This document shows, piece by piece, positions 3,378 through 34,405 of a stretch of 64,000 nt of DNA. The stretch is taken from positions 27,944 to 91,943 of the forward strand of contig JAFQEM010000002.1 in the NCBI GenBank assembly GCA_017399035.1, written 5' to 3'. The notes below the pieces were generated by a model that was given only the letters and a program-made list of their open reading frames with translations, did not search any database and was not told the origin of the DNA. The stretch comes from Clostridia bacterium. Its GTDB lineage: Bacteria > Bacillota > Clostridia > Christensenellales > Borkfalkiaceae. How positions within the stretch are numbered: position 1 is the stretch's first letter; each line of letters opens with the position of its first letter. The position numbers and the translations under genes were made by a program.

Positions 3378-4565
3378 ATGAAAGAATTTGAACTTAAATA
3401 CGGTTGTAACCCTAACCAAAAACCTTCTAGAATATATATGGCTAACGGCAAAGATTTGCCCATAAAAATACTTTCGGGAAAACCGGGATATATTAACTTT
3501 TTAGACGCGCTTAATTCTTGGCAACTTGTTAAAGAATTAAAAGAGGCTACGGGCAAACCGTCGGCGGCGTCTTTTAAGCACGTAAGTCCCGCAGGCGCTG
3601 CAGTTGGCGAAAAACTTTCTGAAACGCTTAAAAAAGTTTGTTTCGTTGACGATATTGAAGGTCTTGACGATTCACCTATCGCTTGCGCTTACGCAAGGGC
3701 AAGGGGAACGGACAGAATGAGTTCGTTTGGCGACTGGATTGCTCTTTCAGACGAGTGCGACGAAGTTACTGCAAAAATTATCAGTCGTGAAGTATCTGAC
3801 GGTGTTATCGCTCCGTCATATTCTGCAAAAGCGCTTGAAATTTTGAGCGCAAAGAGAAAGGGTGCTTACAACGTGGTTCAAATCGACCCTAATTACGTTC
3901 CTGAAGAAAAAGAAACTAAACAGGTTTTCGGCGTAACTTTTGAACAGGGTAGAAACAACTTCAAAATAGATAGGGAACTCGTTACTAAAGAAATAGTAAC
4001 TGCAAATAAGAATTTACCTGAAAGCGCAGTTATCGACCTTATCGTTGCGCTAATAACGTTAAAATATACGCAGTCTAACTCGGTATGTTTTGCTCACAAC
4101 GGTCAAGCAATAGGCGTTGGCGCAGGTCAACAATCTAGAATACATTGTACGCGCCTTGCTGGTAGCAAAGCGGATAACTGGTTCTTGCGTCAAAGTGAAA
4201 AGGTGTTAAATCTTCCTTTCCTTCCCACGCTTGGTAGACCTGATAGAAACAACGTTATCGACCTTTATATATCAGACGAGTGTGAAGACGTTTTGGCAGA
4301 AGGTCAATGGCAAAAATACTTTACTGAAAAGCCCGCTGAACTCACCAAGGCAGATAAGAAAGAAATTCTTTCTAAAGTTAAGGGCGTTGCGCTTGGGTCA
4401 GACGCTTTCTTCCCGTTCAGTGATAATATTGAAAGAGCGGCAAAGAGTGGCGTAAGTTACATTGCACAACCTGGTGGCTCTGTTAGAGATGCCGACGTTA
4501 TTAAGGCTTGCGACGAAAGAGATATTGCAATGTCGTTCACAGGTATGCGTCTTTTCCACCACTAA
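3378..4565 (+). CDS. purH: AICAR transformylase, stand-alone PurH C-terminal domain
   Basis: This enzyme formylates AICAR to FAICAR with 10-formyl-THF. The 395-aa protein corresponds only to the transformylase half of PurH. SFKHVSPAGAAVG contains the catalytic Lys-His pair, and GVGAGQQSR and SDAFFPFSDNIERA are typical. The frame also has a TTG at 3372, but AGGAG at 3367-3371 is correctly spaced (6 bp) for the ATG at 3378, which I take as the start. The cyclohydrolase step is supplied by the preceding gene. The gene lies within the purine operon, 16 bp before purD. Confidence 0.93.
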   Translation: MKEFELKYGCNPNQKPSRIYMANGKDLPIKILSGKPGYINFLDALNSWQLVKELKEATGKPSAASFKHVSPAGAAVGEKLSETLKKVCFVDDIEGLDDSPIACAYARARGTDRMSSFGDWIALSDECDEVTAKIISREVSDGVIAPSYSAKALEILSAKRKGAYNVVQIDPNYVPEEKETKQVFGVTFEQGRNNFKIDRELVTKEIVTANKNLPESAVIDLIVALITLKYTQSNSVCFAHNGQAIGVGAGQQSRIHCTRLAGSKADNWFLRQSEKVLNLPFLPTLGRPDRNNVIDLYISDECEDVLAEGQWQKYFTEKPAELTKADKKEILSKVKGVALGSDAFFPFSDNIERAAKSGVSYIAQPGGSVRDADVIKACDERDIAMSFTGMRLFHH

Positions 4566-5853: not shown

Positions 5854-8800
5854 TGGTTTACAGAATTTACGTTGCAAAGAAAGCCGAATTTGCAAACGAA
5901 GCAACGGCTTTGAAAATTGAAATTTAAAATCTTTTAAAAATCAATGGCGTTAAAGAATTGTCGGTTATCAATCGTTACGACGTTGAAGATATTGAAAAAG
6001 ACTTGTTTGACAAGTGCATAAGTGCAGTGTTTTCCGAACCTCAAATTGACGACGCGTTTAGCGTTTTGCCAAAGGCAGATTATATTTTTGCAGTAGAACC
6101 ACTACCTGGTCAGTTTGACCAACGTGCAGATTCTGCCGCTCAATGTATTCAATTATTCTCTGCAGGTAACCGCCCCGTGGTTAAAACGGCAAAGGTTTAT
6201 GCAATCAACGGTTCTCTCACAGAAGAGCAACTTTTGGCAATTAAAAAATACGTTATCAACCCTGTAGAGTGCAGAGAGGCTGATTTGGCGGAAAAACAAA
6301 CGCTCGCTATGACTTATTCCGTTCCCGAAAAGGTTGAAACGCTTAACGGTTTTAATAATTATAACGAAAGCGAACTTTTATCTTTCCTTAAAGAAAAAGG
6401 TCTTGCAATGGATATTGACGACCTTAAGTTTTTACAAGCGTATTTTGTTAAAGAAATGCGTGACCCCACTATCACTGAAATTAAGATGATAGATACTTAC
6501 TGGTCAGACCATTGCCGTCATACGACTTTTCTTACGACTATCGAAAGCGCAGAATTTGAAGACCAACTTGCTCAAAGTATTTATCAAGATTATATTGACA
6601 CAAGAAAAGAACTTGGCAGAACCAAGCCTGTGAACTTAATGGATTTAGCAACTATTGCAACCAGATATCACAAGGCTACTGGCGCTTTGCCTAAAATAGA
6701 TGATTCTGAAGAAATTAACGCTTGCACGGTTAAAATTAAAGTAAACGTTGGGGGAGAACAACAAGACTGGTTGCTCTTATTTAAGAACGAAACTCATAAC
6801 CACCCCACGGAAATTGAACCTTTTGGTGGCGCTGCAACCTGTATCGGTGGCGCAATTCGTGACCCTCTCTCTGGCAGAAGTTACGTTTACGCTGCAATGC
6901 GTGTAACGGGCGCAGGTAATCCCTTAACATCTCTTTCTGAAACTATAAAGGGTAAACTTCCACAAAGAAAAATCGTAACTACCGCTGCAAACGGTTATTC
7001 TTCTTATGGTAACCAAATCGGTCTTGCAACGGGTATAGTTGACGAAATTTATCACGAGGGCTACGTTGCAAAACGTATGGAAATAGGTGCGGTTATTGCA
7101 GCCGCCCCTGCAGAAAACGTTCGTCGTGAAGTTCCTGCTAAAGGCGACGTGGTTATTCTTCTTGGCGGTAGAACTGGTAGAGATGGTTGTGGTGGCGCAA
7201 CTGGTTCATCAAAATCACACAGCGTAGAATCACTTTCTACTTGTGGCGCAGAAGTTCAAAAGGGTAACGCCCCCGAAGAAAGAAAATTACAAAGATTATT
7301 TAGAAATCCAGAGGCATCTCGCCTTATCAAACGTTGTAACGACTTTGGCGCAGGCGGTGTTTCAGTTGCTATCGGCGAACTTGCCGACGGCTTAAATATA
7401 GAACTTGATAAAGTTCCTAAAAAATACGACGGTCTTGACGGAACTGAACTTGCAATAAGCGAATCTCAAGAAAGAATGGCTGTTGTAGTAGAAGAAAAAG
7501 ACGCTAAAAGGTTTATGGAACTTGCTACAAGTGAAAATTTAGAGGCAACCATAGTTGCAACGGTAACCGACGACGCGCGTCTTAAAATGACGTGGAAAGG
7601 TAACGTTATCGTTGATATTTCTAGAGAGTTCCTTAACTCTAACGGCGCAGAAAAGAAAACAGCCGTTAAAGTAGTTAAGCAAACGATGGATAAAAAGGCA
7701 ATTCCCGCTGATTTTGAAAGTGGAATAAAAGACCTTGCAAAAGACCTTAACGTATGCTCAAAACGTGGGCTTTCCGAACGCTTTGACTCTACAATCGGCG
7801 CAGGCACGGTGCTTATGCCTTTTGGTGGAAAAAATCAACGCACGCCTATCCAAGCAATGGTAAACAAAGTTTCTGTTGAAAATGCTGATACCGACACTTG
7901 TTCGTTTATGAGTTGGGGTTATAATCCTTTCGTTTCTGAAAAGAGCCCCTTGTTCGGTGGTTACTATGCAGTTATGGAAAGTGTGTGCAAACTTATTGCA
8001 ACGGGTGCAACTTTTGAAGACACGTATCTAACTTTCCAAGAATATTTTGAAAAACCCAACAAAGACGCAAGCCGTTGGGGTAAACCTTGCGCTGCGCTTT
8101 TGGGCGCTTATAAGGCTCAAAGGGAACTTAAACTTTCTGCAATCGGCGGAAAGGATTCTATGAGCGGTTCATTTGAAAAAATTGACGTTCCGCCCACTCT
8201 AGTTTCTTTTGCAGTTACAACCGACACGCTAGATAAAGTTGTATCGCCTGAATTTAAAAAGGCAGGTAGCAAGGTAGTGTTGCTCAAAGCAAAAAATACG
8301 GCTGACGGACTTATCGACAGCAAAGACTTAATGGAAAACTTTGCTATAATAGAAAAACTCAACGCAGAGGGCAAAGTTCTTGCTATGTACACGCCGTCAA
8401 TCGGTGGCGTTGCAGAGGCGGTTATGAAAATGTCTTTCGGTAACGGTATAGGCTTTAAGTACGCTGTTTCAGACCTTAAAGAAATTTTTGGTTATAATTA
8501 CGGTGCGTTCGTTATCGAACTTAACGGCGACGTTGAAGTAGAAAAATCTATTCTTCTCGGCTACACCACTAAAGAAGAAGTTATTGAGTGTAACGGCAAA
8601 AAGGTTGAAATTAACTCTCTTTTAACCGATTATGAAGATAAATTAGAATCTGTATTTAAGTGTAACGACGTTAAAACTTCTAAAGGCGAAATTCCTGCAA
8701 TCAAATATTCGGCAAACGAGTGGAATTATTCTCCCACCAAGTTTGCACGCCCCAAGGTTTTAATTCCCGTATTCCCCGGTACTAACTGTGAATACGACAC

Positions 8801-14519: not shown

Positions 14520-14547
14520 TTGACAAATCAAAAAAACTGTGTATAAT
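14520..14547 (+). promoter_or_regulatory. Promoter of hsp20
   Basis: TTGACA (14520-14525), a 16-bp spacer and TATAAT (14542-14547). The CIRCE operator begins 5 bp after the -10, covering the start of transcription. Confidence 0.85.
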
Positions 14548-15237: not shown

Positions 15238-15266
15238 TTGACAAAATTCGGGGGGGGGGGTATAAT
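15238..15266 (+). promoter_or_regulatory. Promoter with an 11-G tract in its spacer (putative phase-variable switch)
   Basis: TTGACA (15238-15243) and TATAAT (15261-15266), both perfect consensus, are separated by exactly 17 bp, of which the last 11 (15250-15260) are all G. Such a run is unique in this AT-rich window. Replication slippage would alter the spacer length and hence promoter strength. The driven gene encodes an exported surface protein whose ATG is 74 bp past the -10 box. Confidence 0.85.
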
Positions 15267-15339
15267 ATTCTCACAATTTATGGCATATGCTTGCAGTTTG
15301 AAAAGTAAAATTAAAATGCCATAGGAAAAGGAGAAATAT

Positions 15340-17337
15340 ATGAAGAAAAAACTTTTACTCACTTCAATTCTCTCAATAATAATGTGTTTTTCTCTCATAT
15401 GCGGAGCAACGTTTGCATTATTTACGAGCGAATCTAAAGTAAACATTGCAGTTACTTCAGGTACGGTTAGCGTTAAGGCTATCCCTGAAATAGTGCAAGA
15501 AGAAACTAATATGTTTTCTGGCAACGCAAAAATAGAAAACGGCAAAGTCGTTATTGATAGAATTTTGCCGTCAGATAGCGTTAAAGTAAACGTAAAAATT
15601 GACAACTTGAGCGACGTTAACGTTAAGTACAGAACGGTTGTTATGTGTGAAGATGATAACGCTTTAACTCGTGAACTGGTTATTAAACTTGACGGTAAAG
15701 ATTTTAGCAAGTTGGCAGAAAGTAAGTGGTATGCGCTTGAACCTAACGTAGACGGCGAAACTGTTGAAGTTGTTATTAGTTTGCCTACCGAGGCTTATTT
15801 GAGCAACGGAAACAACACTTGCACGTTGACCGTAATTGTTGAGGCTGTTCAAGGCAACGCACCTACATACGACCCGTTACCCCCTGCAGAAGTTATCAAA
15901 ATGACTGAAGAAGAAAAAAGTATAGTTCCTAATGGAAGTAACGTTGTTGTTCAAGACTTGAACGTTCCCCTAAACGTTGAAACAGGTTTAACTTTCAAGG
16001 CTACGGAATTGCTTTCTGATGCACAAGCATCTCAATATGCAGACTGGATTGTAGATTACGAATTGTCTTTTGATAAAGATATCGTTTACGTTTATGCAAA
16101 CAACAATGAAGTAATTCCGTCTATAAGAGCAGACTTGTTCTTGATAGGCGAATATCAAATGTATAGTGATTTCAAACTTCCAGTAGACGGTGGTGATTAC
16201 TGGGTACCGCTACCTCTATTATTCCCAGGAATGGGAACGGTTGACGGCATTGAAGAAGAAGTAGACGCAAACGGTCAAATCACCATAACCTTAAAAGCAG
16301 GCACACAACTTCGCGTTATGAAAGATTTACTTGCTAAAATGGATTTAGATTTTACTTTTGCATATACCGACGTAGTAAGTCTTGTCAACGAATTTAAATG
16401 TGGTATCGTAACAGATGTTGAAAGTTTAGGTTTTGGTCATCAAAATACAGTTGCTAGATTTACTGGCGTAAATTTGTCACTTTGCATTTACGAGGCTAAA
16501 AAATATGTAGAAATTGAAAACGGCGCAACGTTTGAAGTTGTAAACTTTAAAGATACTCTCAATAATAAAGTAGAAGTTAGCGCGGGTTCTACCAAAGAAG
16601 AAAAGGCTAGTGCATTACAAAACGCATTGCAAGATATAGATACAAAAGAGGCAACAATTTCTGCTGAAAATGAAGAACTCGTTTGGGAAACTGGTGCTGG
16701 CATAGGTTCAACGCCTATTATTGAAAACGGAAAAACCGAAACTTTAACTTTTGACGGAGGCGAAAACGGCGCAACGTTTACGGCAACGGGCAAAGGTGTT
16801 GGTTCTATTGCTAACAGAACTGCAAATGGAAAGTTGATTTTCAAAAACGTTACTTTTATTGACGAAAGCATTTCTTATGCAGAAGGTAGTTGGGAATACG
16901 GTTATTTAGAGTTTGCAGGCGACGTTGAATTTTATGATTGTAAGTTTGAAAATGCAATTATGATGGAAACAACAAACGCAAAATTCGTAAACTGCACGTT
17001 TAATTCTAACAATGCAAACGAATATGACGTTTGGGTAAGTGATGGCAATGCAACCTTTATTGAGTGTACTTTCCTCGGCTATCGTGGTTTAAAAATTCAC
17101 GAGGCGTACGGTTCAGAAGTTGACACAGTAATTGTTGACAGTTGCGAGTTTGGACCTTTAGCAAAAAAACCTGGCGTTGCAATAGGTGATTTAAATGCAG
17201 ATACCACCGTATCTATTAGATTTAGCACTTTCACCAACTGTCAAGCAGGTGACCAAGGTAAATATATTTATGAAAGTGATACGGACGTTACGTCTTTCAA
17301 TTTTATAAATGAAAGCAATACTATAACAAATAATTAA
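15340..17337 (+). CDS. Exported surface protein: TasA/camelysin-like N terminus, beta-helix-like C terminus
   Basis: A 665-aa exported protein. Residues 1-27 form a signal peptide running into GATFALFTSESK and NIAVTSGTVSVKA, which resembles the start of TasA/camelysin-type proteins processed by SipW-like peptidases. Residues about 30-170 look like the TasA-like beta-sandwich. After a middle region without recognised motifs, residues about 480-660 contain repeated short strands ending in cysteine (FKNVTFIDES, VEFYDCKFENA, AKFVNCTFNSN, ATFIECTFLGY, VIVDSCEFGP), typical of a right-handed parallel beta-helix. No LPXTG, SLH or C-terminal membrane anchor is visible, so it may form fibres or bind the wall non-covalently. 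AAAGGAG precedes the ATG. Its promoter has a poly-G tract. No sipW is seen nearby. The exact function is unknown. Confidence 0.72.
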   Translation: MKKKLLLTSILSIIMCFSLICGATFALFTSESKVNIAVTSGTVSVKAIPEIVQEETNMFSGNAKIENGKVVIDRILPSDSVKVNVKIDNLSDVNVKYRTVVMCEDDNALTRELVIKLDGKDFSKLAESKWYALEPNVDGETVEVVISLPTEAYLSNGNNTCTLTVIVEAVQGNAPTYDPLPPAEVIKMTEEEKSIVPNGSNVVVQDLNVPLNVETGLTFKATELLSDAQASQYADWIVDYELSFDKDIVYVYANNNEVIPSIRADLFLIGEYQMYSDFKLPVDGGDYWVPLPLLFPGMGTVDGIEEEVDANGQITITLKAGTQLRVMKDLLAKMDLDFTFAYTDVVSLVNEFKCGIVTDVESLGFGHQNTVARFTGVNLSLCIYEAKKYVEIENGATFEVVNFKDTLNNKVEVSAGSTKEEKASALQNALQDIDTKEATISAENEELVWETGAGIGSTPIIENGKTETLTFDGGENGATFTATGKGVGSIANRTANGKLIFKNVTFIDESISYAEGSWEYGYLEFAGDVEFYDCKFENAIMMETTNAKFVNCTFNSNNANEYDVWVSDGNATFIECTFLGYRGLKIHEAYGSEVDTVIVDSCEFGPLAKKPGVAIGDLNADTTVSIRFSTFTNCQAGDQGKYIYESDTDVTSFNFINESNTITNN

Positions 17338-17355: not shown

Positions 17356-17389
17356 CGGGTGAGAAATTTTTCTCGCCCTTTCTTTTTTA
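17356..17389 (+). terminator. Terminator after the surface-protein gene
   Basis: GGGTGAGAAA and TTTCTCGCCC form the stem (one wobble), followed by TTTCTTTTTT. Confidence 0.88.
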
Positions 17390-34359: not shown

Positions 34360-34405
34360 AATCTAACTATTTTTACTTGACAGTTAGATATAATCTAACT
34401 ATAAT
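34360..34405 (+). promoter_or_regulatory. Promoter with palindromic operator in its spacer
   Basis: TTGACA (34377-34382) and TATAAT (34400-34405) are 17 bp apart, and the spacer is GTTAGA-TATAA-TCTAAC, a 6-bp inverted repeat. A third TCTAAC lies at 34362-34367. Binding of the neighbouring XRE protein here would block the promoter directly. Confidence 0.8.

Follow-up and report, generated by a model that had tools for sequence, protein, structure and literature searches.

The locus

The DNA analysed here, called the window, is a 64-kb stretch from a metagenome-assembled genome (MAG) of a clostridial relative of Candidatus Borkfalkia; the MAG comprises 1,534,702 bases on 31 contigs and is 69% complete. 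In the window, a gene for a 665-aa protein is preceded by a promoter whose -35 and -10 hexamers lie exactly 17 bp apart, with eleven consecutive G residues ending the spacer (Table 1). An earlier note had drawn attention to this arrangement and to the absence of any similar run elsewhere in the window, and both statements were confirmed: the promoter is exact at 15238-15266, and neither strand of the window has a run of at least eight G apart from the G11 tract. Matches to G8 numbered 4 in the window versus a mean of 0.30 in dinucleotide shuffles, of which 1 in 100 attained 4. TTGACA-N15..19-TATAAT occurs five times in the window versus a maximum of two in 100 shuffles; therefore, a perfect promoter per se is not rare here, whereas the G tract is. 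The promoter scan gave 15238-15266 a score of 12/12, joint best among 13 promoter-like sites in the scanned stretch, the other 12/12 site (17419) belonging to the next gene. As in the promoters of porA and tp0126, a homopolymer is placed between the -35 and -10 hexamers. A further perfect promoter at 34377-34405 carries in its spacer the palindrome GTTAGATATAATCTAAC, itself containing a TATAAT.

Table 1. Features of the 665-aa gene and its promoter in the window.
Feature	Position	Strand	Basis
-35 hexamer, TTGACA	15238..15243	+	sequence and promoter scan
Spacer, first part, AAATTC	15244..15249	+	sequence
G11 tract, proposed slippage element, abutting the -10	15250..15260	+	sequence and shuffles
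-10 hexamer, TATAAT (spacer 17 bp)	15261..15266	+	sequence and promoter scan
Shine-Dalgarno AAGGAG ahead of the ATG	15328..15333	+	read from sequence
ORF of the 665-aa exported protein	15340..17337	+	ORF list and profile searches
Terminator-like hairpin followed by a T run, 3' of the gene	17357..17378	+	scan; weak alone

The ATG of the 665-aa ORF lies 73 bp from the end of the -10 hexamer. The upstream gene encodes an Hsp20 protein and has its own perfect promoter at 14520; terminator-like hairpins in the scanned stretch numbered two, versus a shuffle mean of 1.8. The protein carries an N-terminal signal peptide and is called exported by the hydropathy rule used throughout, and a short camelysin/TasA-like match at its N-terminus (PF12389, E=1.6e-4) reaches 22.0 bits, below the gathering cut-off of 22.5. 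The SipW-type signal-peptide model TIGR04088 likewise scores below its cut-off (15.6 bits; cut-off 19), as do all three matches of the 69% complete MAG to the SipW-type signal peptidase TIGR02228. Residues 528-664 give a weak match to a right-handed beta-helix, and no chain among solved structures matched the protein at E<=0.1. The earlier description of an exported protein with a TasA/camelysin-like N-terminus and a beta-helix C-terminus is therefore weakly supported, at scores below the curated cut-offs; judged by its sequence, TasA-like seems a fair description of a protein that falls short of the formal family cut-offs.

Related promoters and paralogs in the same genome

Six runs of at least nine G were found in the MAG, in addition to one contig that ends inside a G tract; of the seven, three are flanked by TTGACA and TATAAT or TATACT spaced 17-18 bp apart. 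The 665-aa gene has three closer paralogs (on C6, at C18:11017 and on C30) and a more distant one (C18:4221). The four closer genes, window gene included, share a nearly identical stretch of 43 residues at the start, then diverge and end in different C-termini (in the alignment, the third row begins two codons after the ATG); two of the four match PF12389 at E<=0.01, the best at 1.3e-6. The C6 paralog is preceded by TTGACA-AATTGGCA-G10-TATACT and the C18 paralog by TTGACA-AATTAGT-G11-TATACT. In the fourth case, C30, the contig ends within the G tract, with TATACT and the paralog behind it. The switch proposed in the earlier note for the window gene would therefore be one of a set at paralogs with the same design, rather than a single switch. 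The C6 and C18 promoters have unequal numbers of G and nonetheless the same spacer of 18 bp, which counts against slippage.

The distant fifth paralog (L044, G000:C18, about 4050-4206) is preceded by a perfect promoter whose 17-bp spacer lacks a G tract but contains the palindrome CTACCAAAATGGTAG. This palindrome is repeated downstream, and beside the promoter is the start of a divergent gene reading like an XRE-type regulator. The arrangement reads like control by a regulator in the place where its relatives have the G tract. For homologs of the 665-aa gene in two other genomes, G025 and G038, the 170 bp upstream of three starts contain no tract, so the gene does not always go together with the G tract.

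The remaining G runs of the MAG stand before other genes, named here from our own reading of the translations. On the minus strand near 7039 of one contig (L042, G000:C5), a stop codon is followed by G10, AAT and ATG, with the G10 occupying the Shine-Dalgarno site of a small gene; by eye, its product resembles a spore-coat CotF-like protein, and a translational slippage switch is possible at this run. A G11 run at 6192 (L045, G000:C20) lies upstream of the region of an exported repeat-protein gene, and a G9 run at 6613 on the minus strand (L046, G000:C21) lies before an AraC-type regulator; neither has a clear TTGACA at the usual distance.

Distribution across the family and beyond

The pattern TTGACA-N(2-11)-G8 occurs in 8 of the 44 genomes of the genus, the source genome included, and its reversed form in none of the 44; the 36 genomes of the genus without it count against the slippage reading. 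Across the family of Candidatus Borkfalkia, a genus that NCBI assigns to Christensenellales, the pattern was found in 158 of 398 genomes and 10 of 18 genera (84/197 among genomes at least 90% complete), compared with 9/398 for the reversed pattern, counted by eye. A class-wide sample yielded 5/148, again with the source genome included. The most sites per genome were seven each in G219, G237 and G238, as counted on the plus strand only, minus-strand rows being repeated several times per site.

A stricter pattern ending in TATAAT matched at least 119 stretches in the genome contig collection. By their titles, the matches listed were largely MAGs of Clostridia and Bacilli, together with some from Treponema and other spirochaetes, Saccharibacteria, Helicobacter, Streptobacillus, Streptococcus, Blautia luti and Hydrogenoanaerobacterium. 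TTGACA-...G9-TATAAT is also present in the isolate-labelled records L121, L174, L192, L203, L149 and L125, which cover Streptobacillus, Streptococcus, Blautia luti and Hydrogenoanaerobacterium.

With poly-C in place of poly-G, the pattern was found in 30/398 family genomes and its reversed form in 6/398 (by eye). In ten such loci (L323-L332), the tracts lie close behind TTGACA, six of the ten have a -10 at 15-18 bp, and several stand before lipoprotein-like genes. From their layout, these loci appear to be a poly-C version of the poly-G promoter design.

Promoter geometry at the family sites

Geometry was analysed in a set of 102 sites in 101 loci (11 genus loci, 30 family loci and 60 fetched regions), which omits most of genus g5 after G185, later genera and a few sites (G186, G189, G192, G193). 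The family search fixed only TTGACA and G8, and a -10 was then accepted by our own script if it lay 0-8 nt past the tract with at most one mismatch to TATAAT, keeping A2 and T6. By this rule, a -10-like hexamer follows the tract by no more than 8 nt at 82 of the 102 sites, directly abutting it in 44 of the 82; TATAAT is exact at 55 of the 102, and the 20 sites at which the rule found no -10 count against the promoter reading. Tracts of G9 (52 sites) and G10 (27) predominate over G8 (11), G11 (7), G12 (2), G14 (2) and G15 (1).

The spacers of the 55 sites with an exact TATAAT extend from 13 to 23 bp: two at 13 bp, one at 14, 11 at 15, 10 at 16, four at 17, 12 at 18, 10 at 19, three at 20, and one each at 21 and 23. 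The window promoter belongs to the small group at 17 bp. A 17-bp spacer is found in 4/55 G-tract promoters versus 13/23 promoters without G6 in the family DNA (Fisher p=6.6e-6) and 12/26 in the GTDB loci (Fisher p=1.1e-4); with 16-18 bp pooled, the proportions are 26/55 versus 20/23 (p=0.001) and 20/26 (p=0.016), the sites in all of these comparisons being not entirely independent. Ordinary promoters thus hold to 17 bp, and those with a G tract are scattered around this distance and rarely at it, a spread that slippage predicts. The dip at 17 bp may mean that most populations are off the optimum, or that G-rich spacers have another optimum.

Genes downstream of G-tract promoters

The target of each site was taken as the first ORF with a Shine-Dalgarno sequence within 400 bp, and export was called by our own script from hydropathy, a basic residue near the start and few later hydrophobic stretches, with a lipobox rule that was likewise our own. 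An exported target was found at 50/75 family sites versus 14/103 other ORFs at the same loci (p=2e-13), with a lipobox in 35. In the GTDB loci, the corresponding proportions were 60/89 versus 73/458 background ORFs (p=1e-21). By the target rule, 27/102 family sites and 37/126 GTDB sites have no target ORF. The 25 of 75 family targets not called exported, some of which look like ABC-transporter ATPases by sequence, count against a strict association. Among perfect promoters without a G tract, 21 of 43 had no ORF and 7 of the 22 with one preceded an exported gene (pooled p=0.002); therefore, the export bias is not merely a trait of strong promoters. As with porA and tp0126, the hydropathy-type rule places the window gene and these 50 of 75 family targets among exported proteins.

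Variation in tract length

The earlier note had proposed counting the G residues of the tract in related genomes. All tract lengths available here come from assemblies, one per species, and homologous promoters were paired by our own script where at least 100 bases could be aligned across the tract; GTDB loci entering this comparison had been preselected for G9 or more before TATAAT, so their tract lengths are biased. Of 39 pairs, 14 differ in their number of G, which speaks indirectly for variation, and 25 are equal, which speaks against it. Eight of the 14 differing pairs lie within one genome, G238. In one example pair (L177/L284), G9 stands against G10 with 94.5% flank identity, and G531 has a pair of paralogous promoters with G11 and G12.

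Eleven near-identical promoters in G238, with G8 in eight, G7 in three and spacers of 14-15 bp, count against variability, as do three promoters of G272 that all have G8. The readable genes behind the G238 promoters (L223-L230 and L231, L233, L235, L237-L244) are mostly related lipoproteins, and by their sequence the copies appear to be a multiplied unit of promoter plus signal peptide. By eye, a contig end was found no more than 100 bp from nine of the 102 family sites, G096 accounting for four of the nine; mixed lengths may be the cause, or simply difficulties of assembly. A scan of viral contigs for near-identical copies from different samples returned one match only. Loss of MutS was also considered as a cause of instability and rejected, since 32 of 41 genomes have a full-length MutS that scores above the cut-off; the lineage is therefore not repair-deficient as a whole. 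In the 69% complete MAG of the window, the match to MutS is short and N-terminal.

Interpretation and alternatives

The promoter architecture, its recurrence, the wide range of spacers, the bias in targets and the unequal G numbers of homologous promoters were all established directly. Combined, the paralogs and recurrence in the family, the scatter of spacers, the exported targets and the 14 of 39 differing pairs give good comparative support to the earlier proposal of phase variation by spacer slippage. The G11 tract is probably a contingency element through which the exported gene undergoes promoter-spacer phase variation of the porA/tp0126 kind. Since many exported genes in relatives stand behind the same promoter design, random changes in run length probably raise and lower the expression of such genes.

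In the proposed mechanism, replication slippage would add G residues to, or remove them from, the tract in the spacer of a sigma-A-type promoter. Each gain or loss would shift the distance between the -35 and -10 by whole base pairs and rotate the hexamers relative to each other. Transcription would be high at 17 bp (the assembled state), reduced at 16 and 18 bp, and low beyond; 17 bp would be the ON state, in line with tp0126 of Treponema pallidum as described in PMC7864442. The four paralogs of the MAG share the signal-peptide region and, where readable, the promoter design, and differ in their C-termini; with four such genes, the mixture of surface proteins would vary from cell to cell. Throughout the family, the same device would be put to use mainly ahead of genes for lipoproteins and other exported proteins. 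Slippage within populations and an effect on transcription would follow from this reading, and the benefit would be escape from phages, immunity or competitors, or bet-hedging. A broader version is advanced more tentatively, at slightly less than even confidence: a family-wide combinatorial surface programme, in which several promoters per genome with a slippable G (or C) tract would independently flicker exported lipoproteins and TasA-like proteins, most populations remaining off the 17-bp optimum until selection favours an ON clone.

The strongest alternative, which is nevertheless unlikely, would make the G tract a fixed element with a structural or regulatory role, acting through spacer geometry or as a regulator site, with constant promoter strength and a length that hardly varies. 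The near-uniform G7/G8 of the eleven G238 copies and the G8 of the three G272 copies would suit such an element, as would the equal 18-bp spacers of two paralogs in the MAG despite their unequal G, the majority of equal pairs (25/39) and the preference for G over C (158 versus 30 of 398 genomes). Against it stand the range of spacers (13 to 23 bp, so seldom at 17), the range of tracts from 8 to 15 G, and the poly-C tracts that occupy the same position, also before lipoprotein-like genes and with a -10 at 15-18 bp in 6/10 loci. Tracts of this length class are also described as unstable in porA and tprL (PMC3639595, PMC7864442).

It is very improbable that transcription starts elsewhere, by read-through or from another promoter, leaving the tract as no more than the marker of a former promoter or of a point in the 5' region. 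The G025 and G038 homologs do lack such a promoter, but at the window gene both hexamers are perfect and joint best of the 13 promoter-like sites, and both are kept at three loci of the MAG with differing flanks. Least credible of all is an artefact of sequencing or assembly in metagenome data, since 158 of 398 genomes, each assembled separately, share the arrangement, as do isolate-labelled records (such as Blautia luti, Hydrogenoanaerobacterium, Streptobacillus), even though the source genome is a MAG with one contig ending in a tract and contig ends lie close to nine of the 102 family sites, four of these in G096; the exact G count alone can err by one or two.

Relation to known systems and significance

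Promoter-spacer slippage is known chiefly from Gram-negative and spirochaete pathogens. In the porA promoter of Neisseria meningitidis, as described in PMC3639595, poly-G lies between the -35 and -10 and tracts of 11G, 10G and 9G give graded expression, so that the window promoter resembles it in having poly-G in the spacer of a surface-protein promoter. Unlike porA, which encodes an outer-membrane porin of a Gram-negative organism, the present case concerns an uncultured clostridial Borkfalkia relative, a secreted, seemingly TasA-like protein, and paralogs under the same design. Length variation was shown for porA; for the window promoter, we infer it.

The account of Treponema pallidum in PMC7864442 describes poly-G between the -35 and -10 of tp0126, with transcription best at 17 nt, and several paralogous tpr genes with poly-G in their promoters. 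Both the spacer poly-G and the paralogous genes with poly-G promoters find parallels here; differences are that the tprL start lies four nt past the poly-G and that T. pallidum belongs to another phylum, its proteins being outer-membrane proteins (PMC7864442). In Bifidobacterium breve, G-tract slippage switches a surface structure of a gut commensal, the sortase-dependent pili; unlike the window promoter, the tract described there is located between or within reading frames and works through frameshifting instead of promoter spacing (PMC9187656). The invertible promoters of Clostridioides difficile and other gut bacteria, for which a 2025 review names Clostridioides (PMC11868660), similarly produce random promoter switching, and according to that review they flip through site-specific inversion by a recombinase, in contrast to slippage. 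Among the titles and abstract openings listed by a search of open-access papers, with subscription papers and preprints outside its scope, none dealt with phase variation through spacer poly-G in Clostridia or in relatives of Borkfalkia. The mechanism is already known; its use in this lineage, on this unusual scale and for these targets was not described in the papers so searched.

Overall, if the slippage reading is true, promoter-spacer slippage would be a common means of controlling exported proteins in a large group of uncultured gut Clostridia. Many promoters could then have their state predicted from sequence alone, with 17 bp ON and 15 or 19-20 bp low, and this would provide a way into lipoproteins and TasA-like proteins that in these bacteria otherwise lack annotation.
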